Positions 4,034-61,208 of a stretch of DNA of 64,000 nt are shown here, in pieces. Positions within the stretch are counted from its first letter, which is position 1. Each line of letters starts with the position of its first letter. The DNA lies in the NCBI RefSeq assembly GCF_035046485.1, contig NC_085136.1, positions 300,234,778 through 300,298,777 on the forward strand. Reading direction: 5' to 3'. The stretch is from Aedes albopictus. Its lineage: Eukaryota; Arthropoda; Insecta; Diptera; Culicidae. A model generated the notes under the pieces. The model searched no databases and was not told where the DNA came from. It worked only from the letters and a program-made list of their open reading frames with translations. The position numbers were made by a program, and so were the translations under genes.

Positions 4034-4323
4034 TTGTGATCAATTGTTTTTTTTTGCCGATTTACTAGAAATGAACTCATGAGATGTTCATGTTTGTAAA
4101 TAATAATGATCTAATCACCGGTGATTAGAATTCACTCGAATCTTCCAATTTCGGTGGGCTTATGAACTTATGAACCGAATTCACTCGGTACGAGAATTTT
4201 GACACTAGTGGGGCCGTTTCCTATCAGAATTAGACGGTTCTAACGAGAAATGACCCCGCTCTAGTGTCAAAATTCTCGGACCAAGTGAATTCGGTTCATC
4301 GGTAGATAAGCCCATGATAGAGA

Positions 4324-4446
4324 ACTACAAAGGCGATGATTTTGTTTGCGGTTTTCTGTGAGAAAGTGAAGGAGGGATGATTTTTTTATTTCCTCGCACT
4401 TCCCTCACACAGAAACAGTTTTTCCCGGCTTATCAATATTCGTAGT
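4324..4446. repeat. Small inverted-repeat element (actacaaaggcgatgatttt family)
   Basis: The terminal sequence actacaaaggcgatga is matched in inverted orientation by tatcaatattcgtagt, with internal tgtttgcggtttt and gagaaagtgaag. A related copy in the opposite orientation lies at 37219-37355. It has no coding capacity. Confidence 0.6.
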
Positions 4447-5084
4447 TGCGAAAAGACGAGTGCACCGATGAACTGAATTCATCGCGGTCCGAGAATTTTG
4501 ACACTAGAGCGGGGTCACTTCCAATCAGAATTGAACAATTCTGATTGGAAGCGGCCTCGCTCTAGTGCCAAAATTCTCGGACCGCGATGAATTCAGTTCA
4601 TCGGTGCACTCGTCTATAGATGAATGCACCTACAGCTGTGAGTTCACTCGGTTAGCAAAATTTGACACCACAGTGGGGTCCACGTTTATCAAATGCTACC
4701 CAGTTGGATTTTTTTTTTTAAATTTACTTCACCTGATTATCTCGATTAAATTGTGAAAATATGGACTAGTGCATCAACTATATGCGTATACATCACCTAA
4801 ATGAATATTCATGTAAGAAAAAACAAAAAGAAAAGATTGAGCAGTACTCTACGAGGTTAGTCATCACTAAGCAGAAGTTGTTTAGAGTAGAAACCAGTAG
4901 TGTGTAAAAATTCATCAGGTGAGTGAACTCAACGTTCATCGGTGCACTCGTCTTTGGACGTATCCACCGATGAACTGAATTCAGTCGGTCCGAGAATTTT
5001 GACACTAGAGCGGGGCCATTTCCAATCAGAATCGTCCAATTCTGATGAATTCTGGTGAATTCGGTTCATCGGTGGATAAGTCCA

Positions 5085-5943
5085 TTTATCAGAGGATTTT
5101 CCACCTAGTTACAAGAAATGAAATAATATTCATTATCGCAAACATCAATAAAAATCAGCTGATCATGGTAGCAGGTCTGACACTGGTATTCACCCAGCCA
5201 CGAGTGATTTCATGCACTGGTTTTTATTGATATGATGCACCACAAAACATCTGTACTCAAGTTGATAAGAGATGCTCATAGGGCAAATGAAGTGCCAATT
5301 TTCTGTAAATTTGTCGGGACTTCTCCCTAAATTTTTCATAATCATGTTTTCGTAGTTACTTGCGTAGATCCTCCAGTAATTACCCAATTGTGACTTTCCT
5401 AGATTTTCCAATTTTCCAATATTTAATTGTTCTTTTCAAAGAACTCCTAAAAGACTTCATCCACGATGTTGTTCAAAACCTGGAGCAGAAATTTACTGAA
5501 AGTGTGAAGATCCTGCAGGAACTCTCGCTGAAACCCACGGTTAGAAATATCGGACTTCTGGACCTCGAGAGGTTTTACTTCTATTTTTACTGGATATTTT
5601 TCTGAACGACCACCTAAACTATAAGAGGGTTAACTCTACGGCGTTTCGTAAAAAATCGAAAATTTTGGAGGTTCCATCCTGCACCTTGAACTCATATAGT
5701 TAGAATTTAAAATTATTTTCAAATAACTCAGCAATAGTATGCTTTTTCTTTGTAAAAAATTGGTATTGTTCTAGTGTTACGTGAGAATGTAGCTTGCGAA
5801 CCCCTGTGCAGTGTCGGAGTTGGTTGTCTATACATGTGTATTGTTTTATACTTCGTGTTTTCTGTCAGTCCCGTTCTGTCAAATATGACACACAATAGAA
5901 TCAGTGTAAACAAGGCACAGAATGGGCGCGTATAGATTGTTAG
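5085..5943. other. AT-rich spacer
   Basis: No supported gene. Short open frames here lack splice context, domains or any recognisable family. Confidence 0.5.
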
Positions 5944-21726: not shown

Positions 21727-23509
21727 AGATCAGAATATCAGAAGACCAGAAGACCAAAAGACCAGAATACCAGTAGACCAGAAGACCAGAATACCAGAAG
21801 ACCAGAAGACAAGAAGGCCAGTAGACCAGAAGACCAAAAGACCAGTAGACCAGAAGACCAGAAGACCAGAAGACCAGAAAACAAGAAGACCAGAAGACCA
21901 GAAGACCAGAATACCAGTAAACCAGAAGACTAGAAGACCAGAATACCACAATACCAGAAGACCAGAAGACTAGCAGACTGGTAGACTAAAAGATAAGAAA
22001 ACCAGACGACCAGAAGATCAGAAGACCAGAACACCAGAAGACCAGAATACTAGAATACCAGAAGACCAAAAGACCAGAAGACTAGCAGACTGGTAGACTA
22101 GAAGATCAGAAGATCACAATACCAGAATACCAGAAGGCCAGAAGACCAGAATACTAGAATACCAGAAGACCAGAAGACCAGAAGACCTGAAAACCAGAAG
22201 ACCAGAATACCAGAAGATCAGAAGATCAGAAGATCAGAAGACCAGAAGACCAGAATACCAGAAGACTAGCAGACCGGTAGACTAGATGATCAGAAGATCA
22301 GATGACCAGAAGATCAGAAGACCAAAAGAACAGAAGACCAAAAGACCAGAATACCAGAAGACCAGAATACTAGAATAACAGAAGACCAGAAGACCAGAAG
22401 ACTAGCAGACCAGAAGACCAGAAGACCAGAAGACCTGACGATCAGAAGACTAGCAGACCAGAAGACCAGAAGACCAGATGACCAGAAAACCAGAAAACCA
22501 GAAAACCAGAAGACCTGAAGACCAGAAGATCAGAAGACCAGAAGACCAGAAGACCAGAAAACAAGAAGACCAGGAGACAAGAATACCAGAAGACCAGAAG
22601 ACCTGAATACACGAAGGCCAGAAGACCAGAAGACCAGAAGACCAGAAGACCAGAAGACCAGAAGACCAGAATACCAGAAGACCAGAATACCAGAAGATCA
22701 GAAGATCTGAAGTCCAGAAGACCAGAAACCCAAAAGACCAGCAGAACAGAAGACCAAAAAACCACAAGACCAGAAAACCAGAAACCCAGAAGATCTGAAG
22801 ACCAGAAAACCAGAAGTCCAGAAGACCAGAGTACCAGAAGACCAGAATACCCAGAAGACTCAGAGACCCAGAGACCCAGAAGACCCAGAAGATCCAGAGA
22901 CCCAGAAGACCCAGAAGACCCTGAAGACCCAGAAGATCCAGAAGACCAGAAGACCAGAAAACCAGAAGATTTGAAGACCAGAGTACCAAAAGACCCAGAA
23001 GACCTAGAAGATCCAGAAGACCCAGAAGACCCAGAAGACCCAGAAGACCCAGAAGACCTAGAAGATCCACAAGACCCAGAAGACCAGTAGACCCAGAAGA
23101 CCAGTAGATCCAGAAGACCAGGAGATCAGAAGACCAGAAGACCAGAAGACCGGAAGACCTGAAGACCAGAAGACCAAAAAACCAGAATACCAGAAGACCA
23201 GAAGACCAGAAGACCCAGAAGACCCAGAAGCCCCAGAAGACCCAGATGACCCAGAAGACCAGTAGACCCAGAAGACCAGTAGATCCAGAAGACCAGGAGA
23301 TCAGAAGACCAGAAGACCAGAAGACCGGAAGACCGGAAGACCTGAAGACCAGAAGAACAGATGACCAGAAGACCAGAATACCAGAAGACAAGAAGACCAG
23401 AAAACCTGAAGACCAGAAGTCCAGAAGACGACAAGACCAGAAGAACACCAGAAGACCATAATACCAGAAGACCATAATACCAGAAGACCAGATGAACAGA
23501 AGACTAGGA
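21727..23509. repeat. Minisatellite of 8-bp unit cagaagac, part shifted to 9-bp cccagaaga
   Basis: About 1.8 kb of gaccagaagaccagaagacc. In 22845-23130 and 23205-23290 the unit gains a C and becomes 9 bp. Variants aatacc, agatc and actagc recur in higher-order blocks. An 8-bp unit repeats every 24 bp in frame, which yields long artefactual open frames on both strands. On the minus strand this gives an 8-residue repeat such as SGLLVFWS; in the 9-bp parts it becomes a 3-residue GLL repeat. Confidence 0.95.
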
Positions 23510-25627
23510 GAAACGGCGACGGGAAGACGGCGTTATCAAACAAAATCCTAATCATCGAGGAAACGAATAAATCAATTCATTCAGACTCTACTTCGTTTAG
23601 TGAAAATCAAAACAATGCTAACAGTGAATTATTTCTGTCGATAGCAACAAGCTAAATTAGGTACACACCCATAAGCCATTTGGCCAACGACGACGACGAC
23701 GGCGACAGGCCAGACTAAACATAGTCACTTTCTTCGCATGTATAGGAATTAGGAATCACCACCGTCCACCTGCATCGATCTCTTGAGCAAGTCAGCAATG
23801 TTTATATTTGGGATTTACATTTGACCATTCATACCCACCCCCAGCTGAAGTGAGGAAGTGATAATCGTGCATGTGATACTACGAAAACCACGAAAGGCAC
23901 GAGGGTGTATCTATTCGATTGAAATCGAGACACTTGCTGTGCTGCATCCGAACAGGAAGAACTAAGAGAATCGCGATGCGGTGGGGCGGGGTGCGATACG
24001 ATTTACAATTTTAATAAAGTTCACTTCTTAGACATTCATCACAACCACAGCCGGCCGCGAGCTTCCGAGCTGGTCTCGGCACTCAGCGGCAGTGAACCGC
24101 AACCGCAACCAAGGTAGCCGAGTTGTATGTAGCAGAGGGTGTCTACGATAAAATGTGAGGAAGGCGTCTTGTAGCCTGGTTGTGTTCTACCCAGCAAGTT
24201 CAGTTTTAAGCTCTTACTTTCTGGTCGTTCTAGAGTCCTTGTTTTTGGTCTTGAGATTTTTTTTAATTTTCTACTTTTAGTTTTGTAGTCTTGTTGTGTT
24301 TTTAACCTTATAGACTTGATGTATTCTAACCTTTTTTTTTTATTTTCAAGACTTTTAGTCTTTTGGTGTTTTAGTCTTTCGGTCTTCTAGTCGTTTAGTT
24401 ATCCAGTCTTCTAGTGGAGTTCTATAATGTTATAATTTCCTAGTGTGCTACCCCCACTTCTGAGGGTGATTGTGGACCTTCGTCCATACAAAAATGGTAG
24501 ACTTTGGCCATAACCCCTCTCCCCAAAAAGTCCACGTGGTTTTTGAACATTCTCTAGTCTACTAGTCATCTACTTAGTCGTTCTGTGTTATGGTCTAGTA
24601 ATCTAGTCTGCTAGTATATTTCTTCTGAGTATTGAAGTCTAGTATAATAGCCCTCTAGTTTTATCGTGTTCATCCACTGCTAGGTCGCTAGGTAAAGCAA
24701 TCAACCCGTGCAATGTCGAGCCCGTCCCAGTACTTGTCGGGCAGCCGCCGCCGCCGTCGCCATCATCGTCGCCAGACTACCTACCTACTTGCTACAAATA
24801 ACTACCCGAAGGTTACGGTGGCAATTATTTTAAGAATCGGATTTAATTAGATTTCGATAAATTTATTAACGGACGGAACAACTACGAGAGAGAACATTCA
24901 CGATATTCTTCTTCAACAGAAACATAAGGTACCCGTACCCGTAAAAGGCCAGAAGTTTGTTTATGCCTGAATCATTATCATTGGTCTACACATGAAGATT
25001 CACCGTACGTTTCCCGGCAAGACAAATGCATCTCTCACTTTCGCGCATATGAAAAGGTACCTCACCGGTACCGGCCGTGTTGGATACGGTCACTTTCCCC
25101 GCGTCGTCGTCGCCGGCTGTATTGTCATAGTGCCAAGGGACTGACGTCAAACGGCTACGGCTGGTGGTCGAAATCGCTGCGCTGCTCGGGAGGCAGAGAA
25201 TCGCAATAACCGCGCCAAGCCGAGAGGAGCATATGGTTTCAATTTCTAGCTTAGGGCATTCAATTTTGCGCTTCTGCCACGGCAATACATCTGCCTGCTA
25301 GCTCTTGTAAAATGCAAAAGTCATGGTCCCTAGCCTAGTGAAGACGACACAGCCGGGCACGTTTGCCCGCCACATCGGGTAGTTTTCCACTACTGGCTAC
25401 ACCTTTGCGGCGGCTATAACAACGGATAGTGCTGGTGAATGGTATCCGGTGGTGGTAGCTAGAGTAGTGCCGGAGGTTTGCGGGGATGGATCAGCTGCCG
25501 AAACGGTTGGCGCCGAAACTAGGTCAATTTAGCGGCGGCGACGCTGCATTTCTGGGATTAGGTAAAAGCTGGCAAATGATTAAAATTGTTGGGAGCGAAT
25601 TTAAATTGTAATGTCTCCCGGCTATAT
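23510..25627. other. Mixed spacer, partly GC-rich
   Basis: 24180-24680 is a degenerate gtcttctagt-type repeat, the complement orientation of the preceding minisatellite. 24000-24130, 24690-24800 and 25020-25560 are GC-rich and repeat-poor and could be host regulatory or untranslated sequence. No exon could be supported. Confidence 0.4.
24463..24555. repeat. Truncated relative of the 8222-8389 MITE
   Basis: Shares gtccatacaaaaat, gtagactttggcca, acccctctccccaaaaagtc and cacgtggtttttgaac with the 8.2-kb element, but lacks both complete ends. Confidence 0.6.
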
Positions 25628-25875
25628 TCCTTCTTCTTCTTCTTTATGGCTCGACGTTTGCATGGGAACTTGGCCTGCCTCTCTTCAACTTAGTGTTCTT
25701 TGAGCACTTTCACAGTTATTAATTGGAGGGCCTTTTGTAACATTGTGTGGCAAAAGTACAATGATACTCTATGCCCAGGGAGTCGAGAAAATTTTCTCGA
25801 CCGGAACGGGAATCGAACCCGCCGTCTCCGGATTGGCGATCCATAGCTTTAACCACTAGGCTATCTGGAGAGCCC
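25628..25875 (-). mobile_element. tRNA-derived SINE, full length
   Basis: On the minus strand: ctctccagatagcctagtgg (A-box region), gcgggttcgattcccgttcc (B box), ttctcgactccctgggcata, tgtgaaagtgctcaaagaac, and a 3' gccataaagaagaagaagaa repeat. It is the complete counterpart of the deleted copy at 13081-13281. Confidence 0.85.
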
Positions 25876-25984: not shown

Positions 25985-26117
25985 GCAGAAACAAGTATCC
26001 GATAAACAATTTTTTATTTTAAATTGCGGCAACACACTTCCGCGCTCCGGTGGGAATCGAACCCACGACTCCTTATTCGCTAGAAGGGCGATTCTATACC
26101 TCTATGCTATGGAGCCA
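25985..26117 (-). mobile_element. tRNA-like SINE head (tRNA-Ala-like)
   Basis: The minus strand shows a T arm with perfect stem GTGGG-TTCGATT-CCCAC, a loop containing CTAGCGA (AGC at the anticodon position), and five paired acceptor bases (GCTCC/GGAGC). The anticodon stem is bulged and the downstream sequence is not a normal tRNA trailer, so this is scored as SINE rather than a functional tRNA gene. Same family as 31011-31247. Confidence 0.6.
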
Positions 26118-30853: not shown

Positions 30854-31018
30854 GCGGGGCAAGTTGAAACGGATGGGGCAAGATGAAACGCGAAGTTTTG
30901 AAACCGTTTCCAGGACATTATTCTTTCGCCAAAAGATTGTTTGAATCAAAAATTATGTGTTATGTTGTCCACCATCATTGGATAACATCATGTAAACCCG
31001 CTCTTTCATCTTGCCCCG
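30854..31018. repeat. Small inverted-repeat element with cggggcaag(a/t)tgaaa ends
   Basis: cggggcaagttgaaac and a second tggggcaagatgaaac lie at the left, complemented by tttcatcttgccccg at the right, about 165 bp in all. The right end overlaps the SINE tail at 31011, so the border is ambiguous. Confidence 0.5.
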
Positions 31019-31247
31019 GTGCACCTTAGCTCATAATCTTTTAGACTACTAGGATTTTCGGTTGACAGGCATCCAGTGTTGCCTTTTAGTTCTAAAGACA
31101 GCTTGTTTTCTGGTCTTTCAGTCATATGGTTTCCTTATATTCTAGTTTTCTTATTTTGTTAAAAAAAATCGCGTTCTGGTGGGATTCGAACCCACGACTC
31201 CGTATTTGCTAGACCGGTGCCTTAACCAACTAAGCCGAGCTCTCGAC
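31011..31247 (-). mobile_element. tRNA-Ala-like SINE, copy 1 (intact reference)
   Basis: On the minus strand: gctcggcttagttggttaag (A box), a CTAGCAA loop, a perfect T arm GTGGG-TTCGAAT-CCCAC, then cagaacgcg, a T/A-rich link, aaagaccagaaaacaagctg, and gcaccggggcaa. It gives the uninterrupted sequence of the site where the 2684-bp element inserted in copy 2, namely aatacgg(a/t)gtcgtgggt. Confidence 0.8.
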
Positions 31248-31530
31248 GCATACCAAATTAGAAACCAGCAAACAAACTGCTGGCCACCAAGTATGCAGAG
31301 TGCGAGAGTAAGTCTCGGCTTTTATATAAAAATTCATATAAAATTCGCTCTCACTTGTTGTTATTGGCCACACACGCGGTTGTCTTGACATCTAAGCCGA
31401 AAGAGAGATGATTTGTCAAATAAGAAATGTTCATGGTGTGAGTTCGGGTTCAGTTCAGCTTTCTATTCCGCAGAATCATTACCTGTTCTGTGGCTAAGTT
31501 GGTTAAAGCGCTGGTCTAACGAATACGGTG

Positions 31531-31558
31531 CACAGTGGCCAGAAGCCGGACAAAACCT
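31531..31558 (+). promoter_or_regulatory. 12-RSS-like terminus
   Basis: Heptamer CACAGTG (31531-31537), 12-bp spacer GCCAGAAGCCGG, and nonamer-like ACAAAACCT (31550-31558). The heptamer is a perfect match to the V(D)J consensus. The nonamer keeps the ACAAAA core and CC. Confidence 0.8.
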
Positions 31559-32250
31559 CAAAAATCGACTTCAACTTTTTATTTTTACAATATTTTTCTT
31601 CCAATATAGATACTTCAACTATGAAAACCCCAAATTTTCAAGTCATTTGGTCAAAAATTGAGTCTTGTAGATTTTTTCAAAGTTGAGGTTTTGTGTGGTA
31701 CTTTGCTAGTGTTTATTGTTTTAATTTTATGAGCTTTCTTCATGAGCTCGTTGTAAAACTTAGGAAGCTTTGGATAATGTGACAATATTATTGTTGTTTT
31801 TGGGTATGGATGACCATCCTATTTCATGGTTTGTTTGGAATCCAATCACAAAATTATTATATTTTTACAACATGCAAAAATATGGTATTTTATGAAATTT
31901 TGGAGAAAAACTTCGTATTAAAAAGATCCAGTACTTGTTTAGGAAACATCAGAAAACAAGGCCGTATCCCGGATCTGACGTGCAATTTTGTCTAGTTTTT
32001 GGCTATATAGGTCACTGTTTGCGCATTTTTGCGCTAAGCGCGAAAAAAAAATTTTTTTTGCTATCATGTCACAATGGAGCCGCATGGTTGTAGAGGAAGT
32101 GATATTGTGTGAAGTTTATATTTAATCTTAACACAATCCAAATTATCCAAATTGCATTCGGAATACTGACAATTTAGTATAATTCTCATTCTAGTAAAAC
32201 TGGATGGGGGAGGTTGATAACTGGATGGCAACAGCTCAAAAAATTTTTAA

Positions 32251-32534
32251 TAGTTATTTATGTAACGAATTGCAAAATGTTGATTTTTCAGCACGAGTCG
32301 TACATTTATCCAACGAGGCTTGTCGAGTTGGATAAATACGAAGAGTGCTGAAAAAATCGAGTTTTGCAATGAGTTCCATACAAAATTTTATGCAATGATT
32401 TTTTTCATTATGCAACTATTTTTCATTATGCAACTCATTTCAGTTGCATAATGAACCGGTACGGAAAAGTAAGGCATTATGATACTGAAATGAGTAGTAT
32501 AAAATAGAAATTATAATACTGAATTGCATAAAAT
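32251..32534. repeat. Dispersed element (tatttatgtaacga...ttgcataa family), copy A
   Basis: Shares tatttatgtaacga, cgtacatttatccaacga-type sequence, tgctgaaaaaatcgagtttt, gcaatgagttccata and repeated gcaactcatttcagttgcat with copy B at 55879-56163. It lies inside the RSS-flanked element. Confidence 0.75.
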
Positions 32535-33063
32535 TTATTTCATTTATTTTTTTAAATTATTTAATTTTTTGACAGAAAACACAATAAGGTGGGCGATCCA
32601 GTTAAAAAGAGTAAGCTGGAGAGAAGGAGAGTGATGACTAAAAATGATTAAGCCTTTATTTACTTAGACGCTACACACCCCGCATTATTAAAGACCACCA
32701 AATACAACTAACTCTTTGATCCTTAAAATTAATAAAGGCGAAAAAAATTTAACAATAACCACAAACCATTGCTCATTGGTTTTCTTAAACTAATCATTTT
32801 TTCGATTCATCCTAATCGTTAGAATTGCCCAAAAAGCTTGGAAGCAATCTCTTCACGAACTTCAATCGTAGTTTCAAAATACAGTGACACAAATTCGTCG
32901 ACACCTTCGCGCTTCTTTTCTACACGCACAGTTTAAAGCAGAGTCATCTATACAATTTAAAAGAAATTCATTAAAGGGCGCAAAACGCTACGTTAAATAT
33001 TTTTCTGCGTATACGTCGGGATCACCATGGCAATCTTTGATTATTTTTCTCGATTTTTTTGAT

Positions 33064-33338
33064 GATTAACCTGGGCTTGTTAGGGGAATATCTGTAAATA
33101 AAAAGAAAATCGGGTTAAGTACGGTTCCTTTGAATTCCACTAAGAATTTGCATCCTTTGACAGATACGTATTTCGACCTCAACTGTAAGGTCGTCTTCAG
33201 TGTCTTGTACTTGACTTGAGTCGAGTCAAGTACAAGACACTGAAGACGACCTTACAGTTGAGGTCGAAATACGTATCTGTCAAAGGATGCAAATTCTTAG
33301 TGGAATTCAAAGGAACCGTACTTAACCCGATTTTCTTT
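33064..33338. repeat. 237-bp near-perfect palindrome with a 40-bp leader
   Basis: 33102-33338 is an inverted repeat with arms of about 115 bp and a loop of about 7 bp at ttgagtcg (around 33218). It includes cctttgacagatacgtattt, cgacctcaactgtaaggtcg and its complement. It is preceded by gattaacctgggcttgttag ... gtaaataaaaagaaa. The same leader plus a single arm occurs at 41761-41937. Confidence 0.9.
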
Positions 33339-34175
33339 CGATTTTTTTTGTTGTTTTTTTTATTCAAAAACTTGGAGTTTTATTGTATGTTATTCATGCG
33401 TTTTCTTAGAACACATTTCTACTGAACAACACACAGAGTGATATGGATTTTGGAAATATTTCCTGGAGCTTTATTGTTCATCAATATGATTACCGATCTC
33501 TAATTTAATCTCGTTTATCAATCAATTTTGCAAATATGTATTGCCAATTTTTTATATATAAGGTTATTTTGATTGCTTCGACAAGTGATAACAAAGATCA
33601 ATGTACATCACAACATGTACAACCTAAACTCGGACGAACATTTATGAAGTCGTTGAAATGAAATTTTCAAAAGTCGGTTCAAATTTGACGCAGTTTACTA
33701 TCTGAACCCATTTTAAATCGTTAATTCACCTCCGTGTATCCACCGTAAAGCATCACATGGTCTATAGAGGGTCCCTGAGAATATCTCACGTCTTGTCAGC
33801 CAACATTGTGTGTATCTGAATTGATCCATAGAAAGAAAACGTAGGTAATCGAATTTTTCTAATGATTTATGTAGTTTTTAAAATTTTGGACCACCCTAAC
33901 AGCAAATAATACACAATTACAGGTAATTTGAATGCCAATACATGATATAAGAACCCTCGCATAAAAAAATTGATCAATAGATACGTTCAAAAACGCATCG
34001 TGTTAGCTTATTATCGATAACTTTTCACATGCCTCCCATAATTAGCAGATTTCAAAATGTTGAACTACCCTAATAAAGTAAAATCAAAATAAATTAAAAG
34101 CCCCATGCCAGAAATAGGTTTAGGGCACTAAACTCATCTCAACCTGTGAATTTTAGCCATTTCGGTTAACATTTG

Positions 34176-34214
34176 AGGTTTTGTCCGACCTTTGTATGGA
34201 GACCCGCCACTGTG
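34176..34214 (-). promoter_or_regulatory. 23-RSS-like terminus
   Basis: Read on the minus strand from 34214: heptamer CACAGTG (34214-34208), 23-bp spacer (34207-34185), and nonamer-like ACAAAACCT (34184-34176). The last ten spacer bases (CAAAGGTCGG) align with the last ten of the other end (CAGAAGCCGG), so the 12-bp spacer differs by an 11-bp deletion, about one helical turn. Confidence 0.8.
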
Positions 34215-34401
34215 CGGTGTCGTGGGTTCGAAACCCACCAGAACGAGATTTTTTTAACAAAACAAGAAAACTGAAATATAAGGAGACTATATGGCCGAAA
34301 GACCAGAAAACAAGCTGTCTTTAGAACTAAAAGGCAACAATGGATGCCTGTCAACCGAAAATCCTAGTAGTCTAAAAGATTTTGAGCTAAGGTACACCGG
34401 G

Positions 34402-35820
34402 GCACAAATTCATCTCTCCAATTGTCAATTAGCAATATTCTGTGCTTTCTAGCTGTAAGTTTTTCTGTCGTAAGGACCTCTTTACACGTTTTTGATTTTC
34501 AACTTCTACTTGGGTTGTTTTTTGTGTTGTTTTGTTGCTGTAATCTTTTATTGTTCTGGTTATATACTCTAATTACCTTGTGTTGTGGCCTTCTTTATTT
34601 ATAATCTACTAGTCATCTTTATCCACAATTGTAAATTCTTCCCATTTGTTCGCATCGTTGAACATCGCATTTAAGATACAAACAGCAAACTCACACAACA
34701 ATACTCAAGGCGGTGTACCTTAGTTTACAAGTTTGGTCCTCCTCTCGATGTAAATTTTTGGTATTTTCATTTTTATTTTCAACAGGTCGACATAAGACTC
34801 TACGAGGACAAGACTCAATGGATGTGAGACTTGTAGCAAGTTCATCAATGACCCTATCTAAGTCAATATTACCTCTTGATTCGACAACATGGACCGTGCT
34901 CCAGAAATTCTCACCGACTTTCAAGTCATGGCAGATAACGCAACGAAAAAAATCGTACAATGGAACCCCAAGTGCGCACGCAAAAGCCACGCGCCATTCA
35001 TCGTTTCTTATCGCATCAAGCTGAGAAAAAGGAAGTATGAAGCCCCCAAATCTCCTGGTATTAAAAATTTCACGCCGAAAGCCCGATAACCTCTGGCCAA
35101 CCTAATTACATCGCTGCTGACAGGCTGGTCACACGGATTGACGTTCACCCGACTAATCGCTTTTTTTTACGTAAGCGAGCCAGCCAACGCTCATCGGCTT
35201 AGCCTATGTCGAATTTCGCTGACGTTGACATTTTCGTGGACTCCACATGTTGGCCTGTGGTGTGTCTCCGCTCTCCGGACCATCCGATTATGATGACGGA
35301 ACACGAATGTCAACGTCAACCCGGTCAGTTTCCTTAGAGGAGCTGAGTTGATGGAACTGCTGAATGGGCACCGCGTGTGGGGCTCCGATTTCCGCTGAAC
35401 TGTTTAGAACATCAAACTACCGCGCGCTCCGCCGATGCGATGGAACATAAACTGTTTGTCGTTCTTGACGCGATGGTACATTGCGGAACACCGAGTTACT
35501 GACCTAGCCCAACAAGGAACTCTTTGTGGGTTCTTGTTTTGTCACCAAGTGGTATCGAATGGCTAGTGTTTTGCTTTTTTTGCCTTGATGGATTTGTTTA
35601 GCGCGGAAAGGTAGTCAGAACCAGAAGAGTCATAGTATCACGTGTGGAAACAAGGTTTAGATTTAACGTTTGAGTATTCAATGTCCATGTCCTGTCCATC
35701 TATAATACTGTCAAAATGTTTAATTGTCGAGTTTTCATATACCTCGATAGAATTGTTTATACCGAATTCGTATCCGAATATGCAAATGCCGATTCAAACC
35801 AATGCTATTCAGAATTTATT
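34402..35820. other. Spacer with a stretch open in several frames
   Basis: 34690-35090 is open on both strands. The minus frame contains CVICHDLKVGENFWSTVHVV. The plus frame follows a good acceptor (tttttattttcaacag at about 34770-34785). Neither gives a recognisable family, so no gene is called. 35100-35560 is GC-balanced and may be host regulatory or intronic DNA. Confidence 0.35.
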
Positions 35821-41760: not shown

Positions 41761-41937
41761 ATTAAATAAAAAGAAAATCGCGTTAAGTACTGTTCCTTTG
41801 AACTCCACTAAGAATTTGCATCCTTTGACAGATACGTATTTCGACCTCAACTGTAAGGTCGTCTTCAGTGTCTTGTACTTGACTCGACTCAAGTCGAGTT
41901 TCTTTTTATTTACAGATATTCCCCTAACAAGCCCAGG
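41761..41937. repeat. Half-palindrome insertion inside the gag remnant
   Basis: Read on the minus strand it has the leader gattaacctgggcttgttag ... gtaaataaaaagaaa, then ctcgacttgagtcgagtcaa and one arm of the palindrome seen at 33102-33338. It interrupts the BEL/Pao gag between the NYSNW and LYHLDKA blocks. Confidence 0.75.
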
Positions 41938-42466
41938 TTAATCATCATCATCTTGGAAAATTGTCTCGAACTTAAGCCAGTTGGAGTAGTTTCCGTTGAG
42001 TGTAGCAATCGTAACTTTTAGACCACTACGTGAGGTGTTCCCAGTCACAACTTGTGACAGTTGTTCATCCCAAGCGTCGATGGAAATAAGTGCAATGATC
42101 TCGCGTGCTAAACACCTTCTAATTTGTCGCTGCAAACGTTGAGCTGAGCCGGACTCATTTAGGCGTCTTTGGACTCGCAGGATGAACAGAACGCCACTCA
42201 CCTTCTGCTCAACCTGACTTCGTTGATGGAAAAGTCCATTCAGATTAGTCCATTCAGTCCGAGTCCACTTGGTTCTGTCCATGAAATCCATGGAAGGATG
42301 ATCCACTGCTTTATTGACCTGTATTCGAAGGTGGATCTGGCAATACCACAGAATTCATAGCTTTCTCTGGATTAGGAACTTCCATTGAATTTGGCACAGT
42401 TGCTGCTATTTGTTGCTCTTGCTGGATCCGAGAGGGTTTCTGGATCCGGGTGGACCACGGGATTAT
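41938..42466 (-). pseudogene. BEL/Pao-type gag fragment, upstream part
   Basis: The minus frame ending at 41938 contains VTIATLNGNYSNWLKFETIF. This corresponds to the 'LP-x-x-x-L-P-x-F-x-G-x-x-x-x-W-x-x-F' signature at the start of BEL/Pao gag-like domains. Upstream, the reading shifts frame near 42320 (a stop follows in the previous frame), so the copy is inactive. The sequence continues across the retrotransposon insertion into 51116-51291. Confidence 0.6.
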
Positions 42467-42479: not shown

Positions 42480-43497
42480 AGTTGACAGCCAGCTTCGAAC
42501 GAGTGCGGTTCGTCGTTTCGATTGCTCTTTAAAGGTTATTAAATTTGCCTCGGCGCGAGTTTTTTCGGAAGTGAATTTCGGAGTGGTTGGAGTCCGCGAG
42601 TGCCCGCAGACTGCGGAGAAGTGGCCGCAAGGCATTTTTTCGGGGATTTTTCTTCCCGCTCTCGATCACGAAACCGCCCCACAGGGGATCGTAAACACGC
42701 GCTTAATTCTCCCGTCGCCTAACGGTCCGTGTGTTTGGGAATTGAATCCGGGACGTGGCCAGGGCCACCCCGGACATTGCCTTTCCTCGCCTGAGGGTGG
42801 GGAAGGCCAAAAGTGCCCCACGGGGACAGTGGAAAAACAAAAATAGAAAAGAAAAGAAAGTGCCAAAAAGTGTTCCAAAAGTTTGGTTAGCGTGGGTGCT
42901 CCGAGAAGGGGCCCAACAGTGAAAAAATCTCCCGGACGCTCCGGAAGATTAATTAGCGTTGTGTAAAGGGGCCCAAGCCCACGGATTTATCTTCCTCCCC
43001 TGAGAGGAGTGTGCGGCCGTTGAAGTGGCCTTTTTCGGGCCCTACAGTGAGAACTCAGCCCAAGTAGGACACGTGTCACACACCTGACACCCCCCCCCCC
43101 CCCCAACCACCAAAGCACCCCACCCCCTTCCCCCTTCCCCCAATTTTTTTCCTCTTTTTCCTTTCTCCCCTTTCCACCAACCAACCTACCCCCCCTCACC
43201 ACCCCTCACCCCCCTTCACCACCCCCGCAAATTTTTTCTTCCTTCCGTTTTACCCATACCCCCCTTCAACCCCCGACCCATTAAAGACCCTTTCTCCTAC
43301 CCCTCCCCCTACGATCGGTAGTGCCGGTTAGACCATCGTAGGTCCTCCCTCTCGAGCCACCGTGGTAAGAGAGGCGAGTTTTTTGGAACAAATTCAGCAC
43401 TAGTGCCGCGGGTGTTAGTGTTTTTCACACCTGTCCCAGATAAAGGCCGGTCGACTGAGTGGCCCATTTACCACCACAGTCCCGGCCCGCCGGCACC
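42480..43497 (+). promoter_or_regulatory. 5' untranslated region of the I-like element
   Basis: About 1 kb from the target duplication to the ORF1 start. It presumably holds an internal promoter, since the element carries its own 5' end. 43085-43300 is extremely C-rich (a run of C at about 43089-43103). No other motif was assigned. Confidence 0.6.
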
Positions 43498-45240
43498 ATG
43501 TCGGCGAGTGGCCACCCCCCCACCCCCGGGGACCCAGGAGGACCCGGCGGAGGCACGAGAAATAGAATCAACGGTGAGTACACTGGTCGTCTTGTCCCTG
43601 AATTTTTGGACCCCCAAGGAAACTCCGGGGAACTACAATTCCTACGCATGCGGGTTGTCTCCGGCGCCATTCCCAATGACCCCTTCCTCCTCCGCCTGAG
43701 TGTGGAAAAGTTCATCGGCGGGCAGATCTACGGCGCGTTCAAGGAGAACAAGGGCATCTCCTACGTGCTGAAGATTCGCAGCCAGGCCCAGTTCGACAAG
43801 CTTCTGCGGATGAACAAGCTCGCTGACGGCACCGACATCGTAGTCGAGGAGCACACGACCCTCAATCAGGTAAAGTGTGTTGTTTCGAACGCTGACACCG
43901 TCGGCCTAGAAGAGCAGTACCTCGCGGAACAGCTCAACGGCCAACGCGTTAAGGAAGTTCGACGTATCAAGCGCAGGAATACCAACACCGGCACACTGGA
44001 GAATACCCCCACCCTCATCCTCACCATAAGCGGCACGGTAGTCCCGGAGCACATCGACTTCGGGTGGTCGAGATGTCGCACACGACCGTATTACCCGAAC
44101 CCGATGCAGTGCTTCCGGTGCTGGAGTTTCGGGCACACGGGAAAGCGCTGCACAGCGCCGGCCAAAATCTGTGGTAGGTGTAGCCAAATCCATGACGAGG
44201 ACCAAACGCCCAACCCAACAGAAGAAGCCAACGGACAGCAAACACCGAGAAGGACATGCAACCAACCCGTATGCTGCAGGACATGCAACAGCACCCAGCA
44301 CGCGCTCTCAAGCAGAGACTGCCCCGTCTACAAGCGAGAAAACGCCATTCAGGTGATTAGGGTAGACGAGGGAATTTCTTACCCGCAGGCACGGCGGGAA
44401 TTCGAAGCACGAGAAGCGGCCAAATCACCGGACAAGAGCAGCTATGCAGGAGTCGCGAGCAGCAGCAAGGACACGCAGATCGCCGAGCTAGAAGCCACCG
44501 TCAGAAAACTCCAAAATGACGCCGAAAGAAGAGAGAAGCGAATGGCCGACCTGGAGGCAGCTCTCCAGAACCGGCACGTCGGAGCGAGACTGGAGGCAGC
44601 CAAGGAGCACGGCCCAGTAGAAGAGCTGATCCGACAGGTGGCGGAGCTTACTGCCACCGTCAAACAGCTGCAATCCGATCTCAAGGCTAAGGACGCAATC
44701 ATTGCCGAGCTCCAACGGGACCAACGAGAACAGCTAACCCCGAAGAACTCCACTAACGTCGCCCAAAACCCGCAAACAGCAATGGACCTCTCCCCCAGCC
44801 ACTGCAGCAATGACAGCTTTACGATGACCATCCGGGACCCCAAGGTGGCCGCCCAGGTTGCCGCATGGATTGAGCCCAACGGCACCGGGCCAACAGCCGC
44901 AAAACCTAAGGACAGCAAAGGAGCCACCCCGAAGAAACCAAAGAAAACGAAGGCCAAGAAAAAGACCAGCAACGAATCACAAGAACAGGATCTATGCGCG
45001 ACCAAAACCCACTCCCTCCTGAGCCGCCAAGGCGATAGAGGTGAGCCCGCTAACCAAGACATGGAAGACAGCGACTATTCAATAGCCACTGTGGCGTCGT
45101 CCGCAGCTGGCTCCAAAAGATCGTATCCCATCTCCTCGTCAAGCGCCGGCTCCAATCATAACTCCGGCGATGATACTAAGATCACCCGGAGCCGGAAAAA
45201 GCTACCCCGGGACACCGAGCCAAAGACGACGACCCAATAA
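43498..45240 (+). CDS. ORF1, gag-like nucleic-acid-binding protein of the I-like element
   Basis: The 580-residue protein from ATG 43498 (context caccATGtc, a good initiator) probably coats the element RNA in the ribonucleoprotein. The frame is open upstream to a GTG, but the ATG is the natural start. An N-terminal globular part is followed by zinc knuckles: CFRCWSFGHTGKRC (C-x2-C-x4-H-x4-C), a variant CGRC...H, and CCRTCNSTQHALSSRDC, about residues 205-277. A long coiled-coil candidate follows (IAELEATVRKLQ ... VAELTATVKQLQ), then a lysine-rich stretch KPKKTKAKKKTS and a Ser-rich acidic end. It stops at TAA 45238, 46 bp before the ORF2 frame opens. Confidence 0.9.
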   Translation: MSASGHPPTPGDPGGPGGGTRNRINGEYTGRLVPEFLDPQGNSGELQFLRMRVVSGAIPNDPFLLRLSVEKFIGGQIYGAFKENKGISYVLKIRSQAQFDKLLRMNKLADGTDIVVEEHTTLNQVKCVVSNADTVGLEEQYLAEQLNGQRVKEVRRIKRRNTNTGTLENTPTLILTISGTVVPEHIDFGWSRCRTRPYYPNPMQCFRCWSFGHTGKRCTAPAKICGRCSQIHDEDQTPNPTEEANGQQTPRRTCNQPVCCRTCNSTQHALSSRDCPVYKRENAIQVIRVDEGISYPQARREFEAREAAKSPDKSSYAGVASSSKDTQIAELEATVRKLQNDAERREKRMADLEAALQNRHVGARLEAAKEHGPVEELIRQVAELTATVKQLQSDLKAKDAIIAELQRDQREQLTPKNSTNVAQNPQTAMDLSPSHCSNDSFTMTIRDPKVAAQVAAWIEPNGTGPTAAKPKDSKGATPKKPKKTKAKKKTSNESQEQDLCATKTHSLLSRQGDRGEPANQDMEDSDYSIATVASSAAGSKRSYPISSSSAGSNHNSGDDTKITRSRKKLPRDTEPKTTTQ

Positions 45241-45286
45241 AGGACCTGCTCACGTCGCTCAACAACATTTCCAAAGATCACCATAA

Positions 45287-46021
45287 CTTGTCCTCACCCC
45301 CTCTTTCCCCCTCTTCACTCCCTCAAAAACCCCCGTTAAAAACCCAGAAGCAGAACCAGTTGAGCGACCACCAACCAGCCCCAATAATCCCGGCCTCAAC
45401 GATAACCCCGCAACACCAAACACACCAGCGACGGCACCAACAAAGCCCGGCACACCCGAAAACGGCCTCCCCACACCGGAAAAAGTAGGCGACCAGCCGC
45501 GCCCCCCGCGGCGAAACCCCCCGCGGCGCAGGCTCCCACCGGAGCGCTACCGCAACGATGCGCCTCCCTCCCACAAACCACCTACAGCCGGAACCCCTGG
45601 CCGAAGTCGGAACCCTTCGGGAACCAACCTGGACCTCAAGCAGATCCTCTCTGGGTACCCCGGATCGGCAGTTCCGAGCGACCCGGATCCAATTCAGGAC
45701 CCCCCTGGGCACCTCGGACCTGCAGTTCCGAGTGGTAAGTCCCACCTCAAGCCACGCCCCCTCCCCCACAGGGACCATAAAGGGCCAATACCCAGCAATT
45801 CATCGACAGCGACACCGACAACAACAGCAGCCAAAACAACAACGGCCGAGCCGCCAAAGTGCGGCCCCTCGGCTTTACAGAACGCAGATCCCCAACCCTC
45901 GGCCCCGCGGCGGAACCCTGCGCGTCGCAGGCTCCAACCGGAGCGCTACCCCGGCAACCTATACAACTCGCACAAGCCACTCTCGGCCCAGGAAAGGAGA
46001 AACGCCGCTGCCTATGACAAA
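45287..46021 (+). other. AUG-less open extension upstream of ORF2
   Basis: The ORF2 frame is closed by TAA at 45284-45286 and then stays open for 245 codons before its first ATG at 46022. The predicted peptide is rich in P, T, R and N. It contains PGHLGPAVPSGKSH (45706-45747), a motif repeated twice after the ATG (PGHLGPVVPSGKSH, LGHLGTSLPSGKSH). Blocks RRNPPRRRLPPERY (about 45506) and RRNPARRRLQPERY (about 45914) show an internal duplication of roughly 400 bp. Absence of stops over 735 bp, conserved duplicated peptides and no ATG suggest translation by reinitiation or a non-AUG start. Alternatively it could be a GC-rich spacer that happens to be open. Confidence 0.5.
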
Positions 46022-49000
46022 ATGGTCGCTATCCGCGACCGAATGGCAACTCCTCCTACAGCTGGCCCATCCGGCCGGAATCACCCCCCACCACCTGCAT
46101 CAAACCCGGGTCCAACTCAGGACCCCCCTGGGCACCTCGGACCGGTAGTTCCGAGTGGTAAGTCCCACCCTATGATGCACCGCCGCCAGCCAGCAAGGAC
46201 GAAAAATACGACAGAGACCGCTAGCAGAAGACAGGGTCCGCTCGGGCACCTCGGGACTAGCCTCCCGAGCGGTAAGTCCCACCTCATCCAGGACCGCCAT
46301 CGAGCATCACCCACCTTCATTTTGCAGTGGAACATGAACGGTTTTTGGAACAACCTCCCCGACCTGGAACTCCTAGTTCACGACCAACTGCCCCTGGTAC
46401 TGGCACTCCAGGAGGTTCATCGAATCGAGGAAAGCGCCATGGACAATACCCTCAGGCAGCGCTACAAATGGTTCAAAACGGCCACCAATTCCATCTATCA
46501 CTCCGTAGCGATCGGCGTCTCTGCCGAAACCGCGGCTTCCCGACTGGACATCGACACGGACCTTCCAATTGTCGGTGTCCGACTTGACCTGCCATTCGCC
46601 GTATCCGTCCTGTCGGTCTACCTCCCCAACGGAAAGCTCCCCGATCTGCAAAACCGCCTCCAAGACGTTCTTCAGCAGGTTCCAGAACCGGTCATAATCG
46701 TCGGCGACGTTAACGGACATCACCGAGCTTGGGGTGGCAGCAAGAACAACATCCGTGGCAACTGCGTCATAGAGTTTGCCTGCGCCAACGACCTCGTTAT
46801 TCTGAACGATGGTTCGCCAACATTCCAGAGGGGAACGACCGAAACGGTGATAGACATCGCGCTAGCCTCATCGAGCATCTCGGCCCGCCTGCTGTGGCAC
46901 GCGGTAGAGGACCCCCACGGCAGCGACCACTCACCAATCATCATCACCCTGAACAACAGCAGCCCACCGGAAACAACCCGACGACCCCGGTGGCTCTACG
47001 AAAAAGCCGACTGGGCAGCGTTCCAAGCGGCCGTCGAAGAAGAGATCGGGACCGGAACGCACACCTCAATGGAGGAAATCACCTCAGCGATCATCCTGGC
47101 AGCCGGCCAGACCATCCCAAAAACCAGCCCCAAACCGGGGAAGCGCGCACTCCATTGGTGGGACGAAACCACCAAAGCGGCGGTGAAATTCCGAAGGAAG
47201 ACACTCCGAGCCTTCAAAAGGGCGAAAGACCGGCTCCCGCCGGACCACCCAGACATAGCGCTAGCGAATGAAAACTACAAAAACGCGCGGAACGCCTGTC
47301 GCCAGGAAATCCGCGAAGCCAAGGAGAAGTCGTGGAAGGAATTTTTAGACTCCATCAACGACCAGCAGTCGTCTGCCGAGCTATGGCAGAAAATAAACGG
47401 ATTGCAGGGCAAGCGAAGAGTTAAAGGCATGTGCCTAACGGTCAACGGCCAGCCTACTAGAGACCCCCAAATCATCGCGGAAACTCTGGCAGGGTACTTC
47501 TACGGACTCTCGTCCATCGAGAACTACCCCATCCCCTTCCTAAAAGCCCACCCATCTCCGCGCACCGCAGTCGCAAGATTCGCCGTCCCCCCTGATCGGG
47601 GCCAAAACTTCAACCTTCCGTTCCGCCTTCCCGAGCTGGAATTTGCCCTCAGCAAGGCAAAAGGGAAATCCTCAGGACCGGACGAGCTTGGTTACCCCAT
47701 GCTCAGAAATCTACCTCCCAGCTGTAAGCGCAGCCTGCTGCAAGCAGTAAACGACATTTGGGCTTCGGGCACGCTCCCGGCCGAATGGAAGCACAGCCTG
47801 GTGGTTCCGATCCCGAAAGGCACCGGACCAGCCAATAAGGCATCCAGCTACCGGCCGATCGCGCTAACCAGCTGCGCCTCCAAAATAATGGAGAAAATGG
47901 TGAACCGTCGACTAGTGGAGCACCTGGAGACCAACGGCCACCTAGACCACCGGCAGCACGCTTTCCGGGCCGGACGCGGCACCGGCACTTTTCTAGCAGA
48001 GCTAGGTCAGACCCTGGACGACGCGCTAGACAGCAACCTGCATATCGAGCTAATTTCCCTCGACCTGGCCAAGGCTTACAACCGGGCATGGACCCCCGAC
48101 GTCCTGGAGAGGTTGGCCCGATGGGGCATCACCGGGAATCTACTCCAGTTCCTGAAGGATTTCCTTGTCGGAAGGACGTTCCAGGTGATCGTCGGAAACA
48201 ACCGAAGCAGCCCACACGACGAAGAAACCGGAGTACCACAAGGATCGGTAATTGCGGTCACCATCTTCCTGGTGGCCATGAGCGGAATCTACCAGACCAT
48301 CCCAAGGGGCGTATTCCTCAAGGTGTACGCCGACGACATCACCCTGATTGTGGTCGGAATGCACCCGAAGGCCATAAGGAGGAAAGCCCAAGCAGCCACC
48401 ACCGCCGTCGGCAAATGGGCCGCCAAAGCCGGATTCGACATCTCCGCCGCCAAGTCTGGGAGGTTGCACATCTGCGCGGAAAACCACCAGCCGCCACGGA
48501 AACCCATCACCCTAAACCAGGAGACCATCCCCACCAAAAAGACTTTGAAGACCCTTGGCGTCACTCTGGACCGGCATCTCACCCTGCAGGCCCACTTCGA
48601 CCAGGTCAAGAAGAGCTGCAAGAGCCGTTTAAACCTTCTTCGGAGCATCTCGGGCAAACGAACCCGGAGCGACAGAGCCACCCATCTGAGGGTCGCCGAC
48701 GCCATCATTGGCAGCCGGATAACGTACGGCATCGAGCTAACCTGCCGAGCTCAAGACCGTTTAATCAGGACGCTAGCACCCATCCACAACCGGGCCATTA
48801 GAACCATTTCCGGCCTGCTCCCCTCAACCCCCGCAGACGCAGCATGCGCCGAAGCTGGCGTTCTGCCCTTTCGGCACAGAGTCGCGCTGACCACCTGCGA
48901 CCGAGCTATCGGTTTTTTGGAAAAAACCCGGGAGAACGGGCAAGGCTGCTTCCTCGCCGAGCAAGCAAACCTGGCCCTCCAAACCGCGGCCAACGCCACG

Positions 49001-49945
49001 CTTCCCCCGGTGGCTGGTCTCCACCGGCTTGGGCCGAGAAGCTGGTCGGCCAGGGCACCCGAAGTTGACAACACGATCAAGAAACGTTTCAGACGGCAGG
49101 CTCAACCTCAGCAAGTTCAGGCACATTTCCACGAAAGGATTAGGAAACGGTACCACAATTGGGCGATCCGGTACAGCGACGGCTCCAAGGTAGGCGAACG
49201 AGTGGGAGTGGGAGTTCACGGTACCGAACCTGAACAACACCACCGACTCCCGGCGGAATGTTCGGTCTTCTCGGCTGAAGCTGCAGGGATTTTCCAAGCA
49301 ATAACAGCCCCAAGAGACCGACCCGTACTTGTTGTGACTGACTCACAGAGCGCTATCTCAGCAATCGAGAGCCCAAAAGCGAAACATCCCTTCATTCAGG
49401 GCGTCCAGGCAGAATTAGATTCCGCCGAACACCTGACAGCTCTAATGTGGATCCCCGGGCACTGCGGAATTCGTGGAAACGAGCGAGCCGACGTGCTGGC
49501 TGGCATCGGCAGGAACAGCCTCCTCCTTACACCGAAAACCCCAGCAGACGACGTGAAAAAGTGGGTCAGGGACACCATATGGCGGTTCTGGTCCGACGAA
49601 TGGAGGCGGGACAGGATTCTGTTCCTACGAAAATCTAAACCATCCACGGGCCCCGGCGAAGACCTGCCAAACCGGCGGGAACAAACTGTCCTCTCTCGGC
49701 TCAGAACGGGACACACTCGGGTGTCTCATAGTATGACCACCAACAGCTCCGGCTTCCACCGACAATGCGAAATCTGTGTCACACCAAACACGGTCGAGCA
49801 CTTCTTGTGCACCTGCCCAGTTTACGAGGCCCTCCGTCAGATGCACCAGGTGACAGACGTCCCCAGGTCACTGGCCAACGACAAAGTCAACGAGCGCCAA
49901 GTAATCAACTACCTCAAGGAAGCTGGCCTCTTTGACAACATTTGA
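46022..49945 (+). CDS. ORF2 polyprotein: endonuclease, reverse transcriptase, RNase H
   Basis: 1307 residues from the first ATG. The AP-type endonuclease spans about residues 98-320: QWNMNG, LALQEVH, VGDVNGHHRAWG and GSDHSPI carry the expected N, E, D/N and D/H catalytic residues. RT spans about 500-850, with KSSGPDELGY, SYRPIALTS, SLDLAKAYNRAW, GVPQGSV and the catalytic VYADD (about residue 768). RNase H follows at about 1050-1160: YSDGSK, SAEAAGI, TDSQSAI and GHCGIRGNERAD preserve the D-E-D-D set. A C-terminal C-x2-C...H...C-x-C finger (CEICVTPNTVEHFLCTC) lies at about residue 1246. It would nick target DNA and reverse-transcribe the element RNA. All motifs are intact and no stop interrupts them. 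The N-terminal 90 residues carry two GHLG(P/T)xxPSGKSH repeats. Confidence 0.93.
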   Translation: MVAIRDRMATPPTAGPSGRNHPPPPASNPGPTQDPPGHLGPVVPSGKSHPMMHRRQPARTKNTTETASRRQGPLGHLGTSLPSGKSHLIQDRHRASPTFILQWNMNGFWNNLPDLELLVHDQLPLVLALQEVHRIEESAMDNTLRQRYKWFKTATNSIYHSVAIGVSAETAASRLDIDTDLPIVGVRLDLPFAVSVLSVYLPNGKLPDLQNRLQDVLQQVPEPVIIVGDVNGHHRAWGGSKNNIRGNCVIEFACANDLVILNDGSPTFQRGTTETVIDIALASSSISARLLWHAVEDPHGSDHSPIIITLNNSSPPETTRRPRWLYEKADWAAFQAAVEEEIGTGTHTSMEEITSAIILAAGQTIPKTSPKPGKRALHWWDETTKAAVKFRRKTLRAFKRAKDRLPPDHPDIALANENYKNARNACRQEIREAKEKSWKEFLDSINDQQSSAELWQKINGLQGKRRVKGMCLTVNGQPTRDPQIIAETLAGYFYGLSSIENYPIPFLKAHPSPRTAVARFAVPPDRGQNFNLPFRLPELEFALSKAKGKSSGPDELGYPMLRNLPPSCKRSLLQAVNDIWASGTLPAEWKHSLVVPIPKGTGPANKASSYRPIALTSCASKIMEKMVNRRLVEHLETNGHLDHRQHAFRAGRGTGTFLAELGQTLDDALDSNLHIELISLDLAKAYNRAWTPDVLERLARWGITGNLLQFLKDFLVGRTFQVIVGNNRSSPHDEETGVPQGSVIAVTIFLVAMSGIYQTIPRGVFLKVYADDITLIVVGMHPKAIRRKAQAATTAVGKWAAKAGFDISAAKSGRLHICAENHQPPRKPITLNQETIPTKKTLKTLGVTLDRHLTLQAHFDQVKKSCKSRLNLLRSISGKRTRSDRATHLRVADAIIGSRITYGIELTCRAQDRLIRTLAPIHNRAIRTISGLLPSTPADAACAEAGVLPFRHRVALTTCDRAIGFLEKTRENGQGCFLAEQANLALQTAANATLPPVAGLHRLGPRSWSARAPEVDNTIKKRFRRQAQPQQVQAHFHERIRKRYHNWAIRYSDGSKVGERVGVGVHGTEPEQHHRLPAECSVFSAEAAGIFQAITAPRDRPVLVVTDSQSAISAIESPKAKHPFIQGVQAELDSAEHLTALMWIPGHCGIRGNERADVLAGIGRNSLLLTPKTPADDVKKWVRDTIWRFWSDEWRRDRILFLRKSKPSTGPGEDLPNRREQTVLSRLRTGHTRVSHSMTTNSSGFHRQCEICVTPNTVEHFLCTCPVYEALRQMHQVTDVPRSLANDKVNERQVINYLKEAGLFDNI

Positions 49946-50908
49946 GCGATCGGCGTAAGAACCCTGGTCGTGGGCACCTCGGACCTCTCGGTCTCTCCGG
50001 GATCCGAGTGGTAAGTCCCACCCCAAACAACCCACCCCTCCACCACGACACCACGATCAATCCGATCGTCAAGGAGGAAAGAATGTCCCCGTCACGGGCA
50101 CTCACACAACATACAACCGAAGGAGAACATCAATGGTTAACCTCCTGCAACAGTCGGGGCGCCGTCCAACCGGAAGTCGGAAGGGGACCGGCATGGACGG
50201 GCCGACCTCGGCGTTGTAGGGAAGAAACCGGCGATACGGAGCATACCCTCCGGCAGTCGGGGCGCCGTCCAACCGGAAGCCGGCAGGGGACCGGCATGGA
50301 CGGGTCGACCTCGGCGCCGGCAGGACGATGGAAGCAGCAGAAACCGAAATCCAAAAACTACCGGGAACGGTGGGCACCTCGGACCTCTCGGGTTCCCGGG
50401 ATCCGAGCGGTAAGTCCCATCCCCACTCAACCTGAAGGCCTACCCCAACGAACCTCGAACCAGAACCCCCGGTGGCCCCCCTCGGGCTTCCCTGGGACCC
50501 AAGTGACAATTCGTACCACAAAACGATCCTCCAAACCACCACGAACCACCGGCGGGCAGAGCCCCACCACCACGGAACCACCAAACCACAAAACCATCAA
50601 TACCCCGGACCCCCCGGCCTCGCCGGGACCACATCGACCCTCAAGGTCATTGAACCCGGTCGTGGGCACCTCGGCCCTCTCGGATTCCCCGGGACCCGAG
50701 TGGTAAGCCCCACCCCAAGCGACCCCCACCAACACGCCCACAACCACCAGCCTGGTCGGAAGAGCCCGCACCTCGGACCCCCGTTTCCGGAACCCGAGCG
50801 GTAAGCCGCACCCCGCTCCAAACAAGCGAAGGAACAGACCCCCTGCGACCAACCCGACCGACAAGAAGAGGCACGAAAGAAGCCGCAGGCCCCTGGACCC
50901 CGGACCCG

Positions 50909-55878: not shown

Positions 55879-56163
55879 AGTTATGTATTTATGTAACGAG
55901 TTGCAAAAAGCCTCGTTGGATAAATTTACGACTCGTGCTGAAAAAATCGAGTTTTGCAATGAGTTCCATAGAAAATTTTATGCAATGATTTTTTTTTCAT
56001 AATGCAACTCATTTGAGTTGCGTAACGTTCATAATGCTACTCAAAAGAGTTGCATTATGCAACTCATTTCAGTTGCATAATGAACCAGTTCGGAAAATTG
56101 AACATTATGATACCAAAATGAGTTAGATAAAATATAAATTAAGATACTGAATTGCATAAAATA
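55879..56163. repeat. Dispersed element (tatttatgtaacga...ttgcataa family), copy B
   Basis: Collinear with 32251-32534: tatttatgtaacgagttgca, gataaatttacgactcgtgc, tgctgaaaaaatcgagtttt, and several (a/g)ttgcataatg / gcaactcatt words, ending gaattgcataaaat. Confidence 0.75.
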
Positions 56164-60175: not shown

Positions 60176-61009
60176 GCCTGAGTGTTCGTTATGTTTATCA
60201 TAATCAATCAATGGTTAATGGTGGAAACGTGTGGAGTTTATTCCTGGAGGCGATTTCCCGGCTTCAAAGGTGTGCTATTTCCATCCCGCGTGCGGCAATC
60301 ATTTTTCCGACTAATGATTTCTTTTCTTTTTTTGACGGTCGGTGCCCCGTGTCCGTGTGTCGGATTTGGACTTCAAACGAATATTTATACTCGACACCCC
60401 CATCCACGTGCAGTAGTAATTGGCTTTTTTCGTTCCAGAATAACCCCTCCCTCAACCATACCTCTTTCGAACCGATCCGAATCAGTCAGTGTTTGTAGAA
60501 CAAATGGGTCTCTATTTTCGGAGCAGCTTGGTTGCTATCCGTTCCCATTATTCCATGCCACATATGAGTATGAGATATGGATTACCCAACACCTACCCCC
60601 GATTGAGGTGGGTGGATTGCGGGAAAAGGGAAAAGTCAGGCAGAGAGAAAATGAGAAAAATCGAGAATAAATCACCTGTTGCAGTTGGTGATAGGAGTCG
60701 TCGTCGTCGTCGCACGTTTGTTGGATGGCTCTTTTGTACTAGGTTGTCTGCTGGAAATAGGCGAATGCTGTCGTCAATGCCATCCCATCGAAGTTCAAGG
60801 TAAAAATATCTACCAATAGATTCACCACAGCAACAGAGTAGAACCGTTAGAGCTAGGCACGTTACGACATCGGAATAGAAAGAGTGCCTGTTGATATGCA
60901 ACGTTTATTCGAAATTGCAAGTGACGTAGATGGTAACTGGACATCTCCACAAGCGCCTAACAGGTTCACATATTTAGCAGAGTGCTTCTATTTGATTCAA
61001 CGATCGCCC
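60176..61009. other. Spacer without supported gene
   Basis: An open frame at 60182-60670 lacks any recognisable domain. The codon composition is unremarkable. Confidence 0.4.
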
Positions 61010-61208
61010 CCTCCAGTTCGTTCAAGCGACACGTGCGAACGTGTTTCTCGCTCGCTCTCGGCTACGGTTTGAAAAGAAGTGTTTTTTTCTCCCCGCGATT
61101 TCGGTTCCCCGCGACCTCTCCCCGGCGCTTGCCTGTTTGCTACGCTTGGCAAGAGGCAAAAAAGTGAAACGCCTGGCAACGAAAAGCCCGCGACCAGATC
61201 CACCTGCG

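Follow-up and report, generated by a model that had tools for sequence, protein, structure and literature searches.

Insect DNA transposons whose ends carry a heptamer and a nonamer-like block spaced by 12 bp at one end and 23 bp at the other (±1) are already in print: Transib5 of Drosophila melanogaster and Transib2, N1, N2 and N3 of Anopheles gambiae are listed as such in PMC8355894, where the asymmetric ends are attributed to earlier work. Most Transib families are described as symmetric-ended (PMC8289069), which makes the 12/23 asymmetry a minority state; symmetric spacers of 20-22 bp are given for other Transib families (PMC8355894), and Transib spacers are reported to vary in length (PMC6941560). 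The duplications made by Transib-type insertions are 5 bp long, as recorded for 532 of 533 insertions of hopper and 7 of 7 of transib2 (PMC3276498), and a GC bias is reported for the target sites of both Transib and RAG (PMC8289069). Hztransib of Helicoverpa zea, which is 3518 bp long, encodes a transposase of 489 aa and duplicates GCTCG (PMC1852546), is reported to cut in a RAG-like manner, which leaves the signal end blunt and forms a hairpin in the flanking DNA (PMC6941560); its ends carry RSS-like heptamers and are cited as symmetric, with little or no nonamer similarity (PMC8289069). Aedes aegypti appears among the species abbreviations in the legend of a RAG1/Transib figure (PMC4411706), and it may be that Aedes Transib proteins are known already.

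The locus described here lies in what is probably a culicine mosquito, a host indicated by the protein matches of a single retrotransposon (open reading frame 45287-49945), within a window that comprises the whole stretch of 64,000 bases analysed. Its centre is an element of 2684 bp (31531-34214, plus strand), which is very probably a non-autonomous Transib cut-and-paste transposon inserted in a tRNA-type SINE. We infer its Transib membership, its mobilisation by a transposase supplied in trans, and the inheritance of its 12/23 spacing by the family, as opposed to an origin of that spacing in this copy. It resembles Transib5 and the Anopheles elements in being an insect DNA transposon with heptamer and nonamer-like ends spaced 12/23, a likeness of description and not of sequence identity, and differs from them in its host, probably culicine; with Hztransib it shares RSS-like heptamer ends and a GC-rich 5-bp duplication, and it differs in being shorter, in lacking a transposase and in having asymmetric ends.

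The element is flanked on both sides by CGGTG (31526-31530 and 34215-34219, plus strand), and on both sides by parts of a SINE, of which the aligned 5' part occupies 31492-31530 and the 3' part 34215-34404 (both plus strand). The 3' part shares 92.7% identity with the minus-strand sequence at 31012-31202, and when the two flanks are joined with the loss of one CGGTG, the product is a SINE that aligns to an uninterrupted paralog on the minus strand (31012-31236) over 225 columns, with 205 matches, 19 mismatches and a single gap column situated away from the joint. The target reads CGGAG in the paralog as against CGGTG in the filled site, which means that the empty site is recognised by homology and with one substitution. 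The presence of this empty site in the paralogous SINE fixes the borders of the element independently of any motif and demonstrates the 5-bp duplication, as a sequence-only reading of the same DNA had claimed. A screen for pairing among heptamer-like sites (starting with CAC and matching at least 6 of 7 positions; 38 left and 34 right) arrived at the same place: among the 38 x 34 combinations, just one pair at a distance of 150-6000 bp has identical 5-bp flanks, namely the ends of this element, against about 0.11 such pairs expected by chance.

At the left end (31531-31558, plus strand), CACAGTG is followed by a 12-bp spacer and then ACAAAACCT; at the right end (34176-34214, minus strand), read inward, CACAGTG is followed by a 23-bp spacer and again by ACAAAACCT. 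Both ends had been called correctly to the base in the sequence-only reading, and each is unique in the window: CACAGTG-N(11-13)-ACAAAACCT matches once in 64,000 bases, at 31531-31558 (plus strand), and CACAGTG-N(22-24)-ACAAAACCT once, at 34176-34214 (minus strand), with neither pattern occurring in any of 100 dinucleotide shuffles. The two ends constitute one terminal inverted repeat, in which the outer 9 of 9 bases are identical, an 11-bp gap follows, and then 20 of 23 bases are identical. There is some selection effect in that the pair was picked by its appearance in a large genome scan, which is the point in favour of a chance resemblance with no transposon at all; the probability of such a coincidence is negligible, however, given that the terminal inverted repeat, the 5-bp duplication and the empty site concur independently, and that the shuffles yielded neither end pattern.

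Measured against the V(D)J RSS consensus (heptamer CACAGTG and nonamer ACAAAAACC, both as in PMC8289069), the heptamers of both ends match at 7 of 7 positions and the nonamer-like block, the same at both ends, at 7 of 9, so that the heptamers are perfect and the blocks mutually identical as had been noted, with the reservation that the block is only a partial match to the RSS nonamer. A score of 7/9 is reached by random 9-mers of the window at a frequency of 0.004 (200,000 draws). Telling against the 12/23 reading, both ends have a further nonamer match, one of 7/9 at spacer 20 on the left and one of 6/9 at spacer 12 on the right. Across the whole window, the counts of CAC followed by a 7/9 nonamer run from 3 to 13 over spacers 8-30, with spacer 12 at the top (13) and spacer 23 at four; the nonamer score by itself is thus weak evidence. 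When a heptamer of at least 6/7 is demanded together with a nonamer of at least 7/9 at spacers 11-13 and 22-24, three sites are left in the window, these being both ends of the element and an unrelated site at 58858 with a spacer of 22. The 12/23 reading depends more on the inner block common to both ends than on the nonamer score.

The element is like the 12RSS and 23RSS of jawed vertebrates in that its heptamer is the consensus CACAGTG (PMC8289069) and its spacers are exactly 12 and 23 bp. It differs from them in that the nonamer matches at 7 of 9 positions, and in that the signals bound an insect transposon instead of receptor gene segments. The ends of an insect transposon are not expected to be RAG1/RAG2-recognised signals flanking receptor gene segments. 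An inverted copy of the nonamer-like block (TTGAGGTTTTGT; 31683-31694, minus strand), complementary at 12 of 12 positions to 31550-31561, is located 121 bp inward of the left-end copy. Judged by eye, the bases beside it match the heptamer at 4 of 7 positions at spacer 12 and at 1 of 7 at spacer 23, with no consensus heptamer at either spacing; this block may be a putative subterminal binding site, or it may have arisen by chance.

Because the aligned ends are separated by a single 11-bp gap, the difference between 12 and 23 amounts to one 11-bp length difference, and an alternative origin of the asymmetry has to be weighed, in which the family is symmetric-ended (for example 23/23) and the asymmetry stems from an 11-bp change private to this copy, whether a deletion at the 12-bp end or an insertion at the 23-bp end. 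Such an element would also be a Transib, and this alternative overlaps the preferred explanation, differing from it solely in the origin of the asymmetry. The single gap is what a private indel would leave, symmetric ends are the state of most Transib families (PMC8289069), and the ancestral state cannot be told from one copy. Against this, the SINE sets an upper limit on the age of the insertion, 19 of the 224 bases compared being different between that SINE and its paralog, and it seems unlikely, as a judgement and not a computed value, that a change of exactly 11 bp giving 12 and 23 would have occurred within that age; moreover, mosquito Transib families with 12/23 pairs have been reported (PMC8355894). 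A private indel is accordingly regarded as unlikely, and family-level inheritance of the 12/23 spacing is preferred.

The longest stop-to-stop stretch of the element in any frame is 78 aa, and with no open stretch longer than this the element is non-autonomous. The N in Transib family names stands for non-autonomous. Seven of the longer open stretches of the element were without a Pfam transposase match; one open stretch matched Tachystatin_A, an unrelated peptide family, below threshold (E 0.078; 13.5 bits, the cut-off being 25), and this was read as chance. Part of the length of the element is made up of two nested repeats: a hairpin-type repeat at 32259-32534, with a related copy at 55908-56162, and a near-perfect palindrome at 33060-33344, whose 124-nt arms are 98% complementary and which has a shorter related foldback copy at 41763-41947.

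A GC-rich 5-bp duplication and terminal inverted repeats starting with CAC and an RSS-like heptamer are taken here as the marks of Transib, along with a RAG1-like DDE transposase encoded by the element or by an autonomous partner that has the same ends, and spacers of 12 and 23 bp (±1), constant from copy to copy of a family, as those of its asymmetric members. The element has CGGTG on both sides together with an empty site, CACAGTG at both ends, and spacers of exactly 12 and 23 bp in this copy; what points to Transib is the perfect RSS heptamer, starting with CAC, at either end in combination with the GC-rich 5-bp duplication. The placement as Transib-type fits the ends and the duplication, as read from the sequence of one copy that contains no transposase. 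A Transib transposase from another genomic locus would find its recognition sites in the CACAGTG ends and cleave next to CAC at each of them, and the excised element would then be joined into a GC-rich 5-bp target.

With the superfamily named from the ends and the duplication of an element that has no transposase, there is room for a DNA transposon of a different superfamily that by chance starts with CACAGTG and makes 5-bp duplications. This is very unlikely, as RSS-like heptamer ends with a GC-rich 5-bp duplication typify Transib and RAG-like elements (PMC7204232, PMC3276498, PMC1852546, PMC8289069), and as the duplications differ in length for the remaining superfamilies in a table of MITEs from two moths, which gives 5 bp for Transib, 2-4 bp for CACTA, 8 bp for hAT, TTAA for piggyBac and 6 bp for Maverick (PMC9033116). 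The same two features are shared in part by RAG-like (RAG1L-RAG2L) transposons, which likewise carry CAC heptamers and duplicate 5 bp of target (PMC8355894, PMC7204232), and the element might be a derivative of one of these instead of a Transib. The ProtoRAG of amphioxus in particular is alike in having asymmetric terminal repeats and GC-biased 5-bp duplications (PMC8355894, PMC8289069), but differs in its 27/31 spacing (PMC8355894) and in its RAG1L and RAG2L genes (PMC7204232). Convergent RAG1-like and RAG2-like genes are not present in this copy, although a non-autonomous RAGL derivative would equally be without them. What makes a RAG-like origin extremely unlikely is the spacing: according to PMC8355894, no invertebrate RAG1/2L ends are spaced 12/23, whereas certain Transib ends are.

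With the element taken as a Transib, the sequence-only reading, which had pointed to a Transib/RAG-superfamily element with 12/23 ends, is upheld as to the borders, the duplication, the asymmetry and the Transib-type affinity, but the novelty that it implied for insects does not survive comparison with the families listed in PMC8355894: the element is a further example of an insect Transib asymmetry already in print, and not a new kind. What is added is an example from a probable culicine in which both heptamers are the consensus and the spacers measure exactly 12 and 23 bp. A description of this element in a culicine mosquito was not found among the titles and abstract beginnings of the open-licence papers surveyed. 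It is conceivable, though doubtful, that selection maintains a constant 12/23 pair in a culicine Transib family, whose RAG2-less transposase would need both types of end to synapse. Were this the case, the 12/23 rule would have evolved, or have been retained, outside the RAG lineage. A family with 12/23 ends throughout and an active transposase would furnish a consensus-heptamer substrate on which to test if the 12/23 restriction is older than RAG2; at present, one clean example is added to the known insect Transib asymmetry.

Self-comparison of the 64-kb window revealed no second copy of the whole element. A 500-aa open reading frame (60996-62498), similar in length to a Transib transposase, was considered as the partner transposase and rejected, being without a Pfam match, and the open reading frame at 45287-49945 was set aside as that of a non-LTR retrotransposon. 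Its matches in PDB are weak (E 0.27 or worse), three of the four being gag or nucleocapsid proteins, and with apparent zinc knuckles (by eye) it is probably ORF1 of a retrotransposon. Scans of viral contigs for other copies returned at least 120 stretches in one case and 11 and 7 in two others, and a scan of prokaryote-type contigs returned 17, all 17 titled as bacteria; none of 131 viral-contig loci had sites on both strands, a result of little weight for the family, since these collections hold no mosquito genomes. When the element was compared by BLAST with the 131 loci, and then with 155 viral and prokaryote loci, the same two short matches came up, of 26 and 19 bp, both falling in loci picked for containing part of that very stretch, and the matches to the element in viral and prokaryote contigs were read as chance.

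The remainder of the window is rich in features of other kinds. A repeat of about 160 bp forms a dense array over 1-5086, its copies lying in direct and inverted orientation (self-comparison), and 22450-23532 is an open frame of 360 aa composed of low-complexity repeat (LLVFWSSG-like), which by eye is a minisatellite and not a gene. A tRNA-Gly (gcc) was predicted on the minus strand at 25797-25871 by both ARAGORN and Rfam; SINE-like sequence is found close by (26041-26084), and the predicted tRNA may belong to a repeat of tRNA origin. The interval 43459-50706 is a non-LTR retrotransposon, whose open reading frame (45287-49945) encodes endonuclease, reverse transcriptase and RNase H domains. 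Among the best 120 of the 169 matches to its reverse transcriptase region, one is 99% identical over the queried region, those from Aedes albopictus are 69% and 53% identical, Ochlerotatus camptorhynchus, Armigeres subalbatus, Topomyia yanbarensis and Malaya genurostris are also represented, and Anopheles atroparvus is lower, at 35%.
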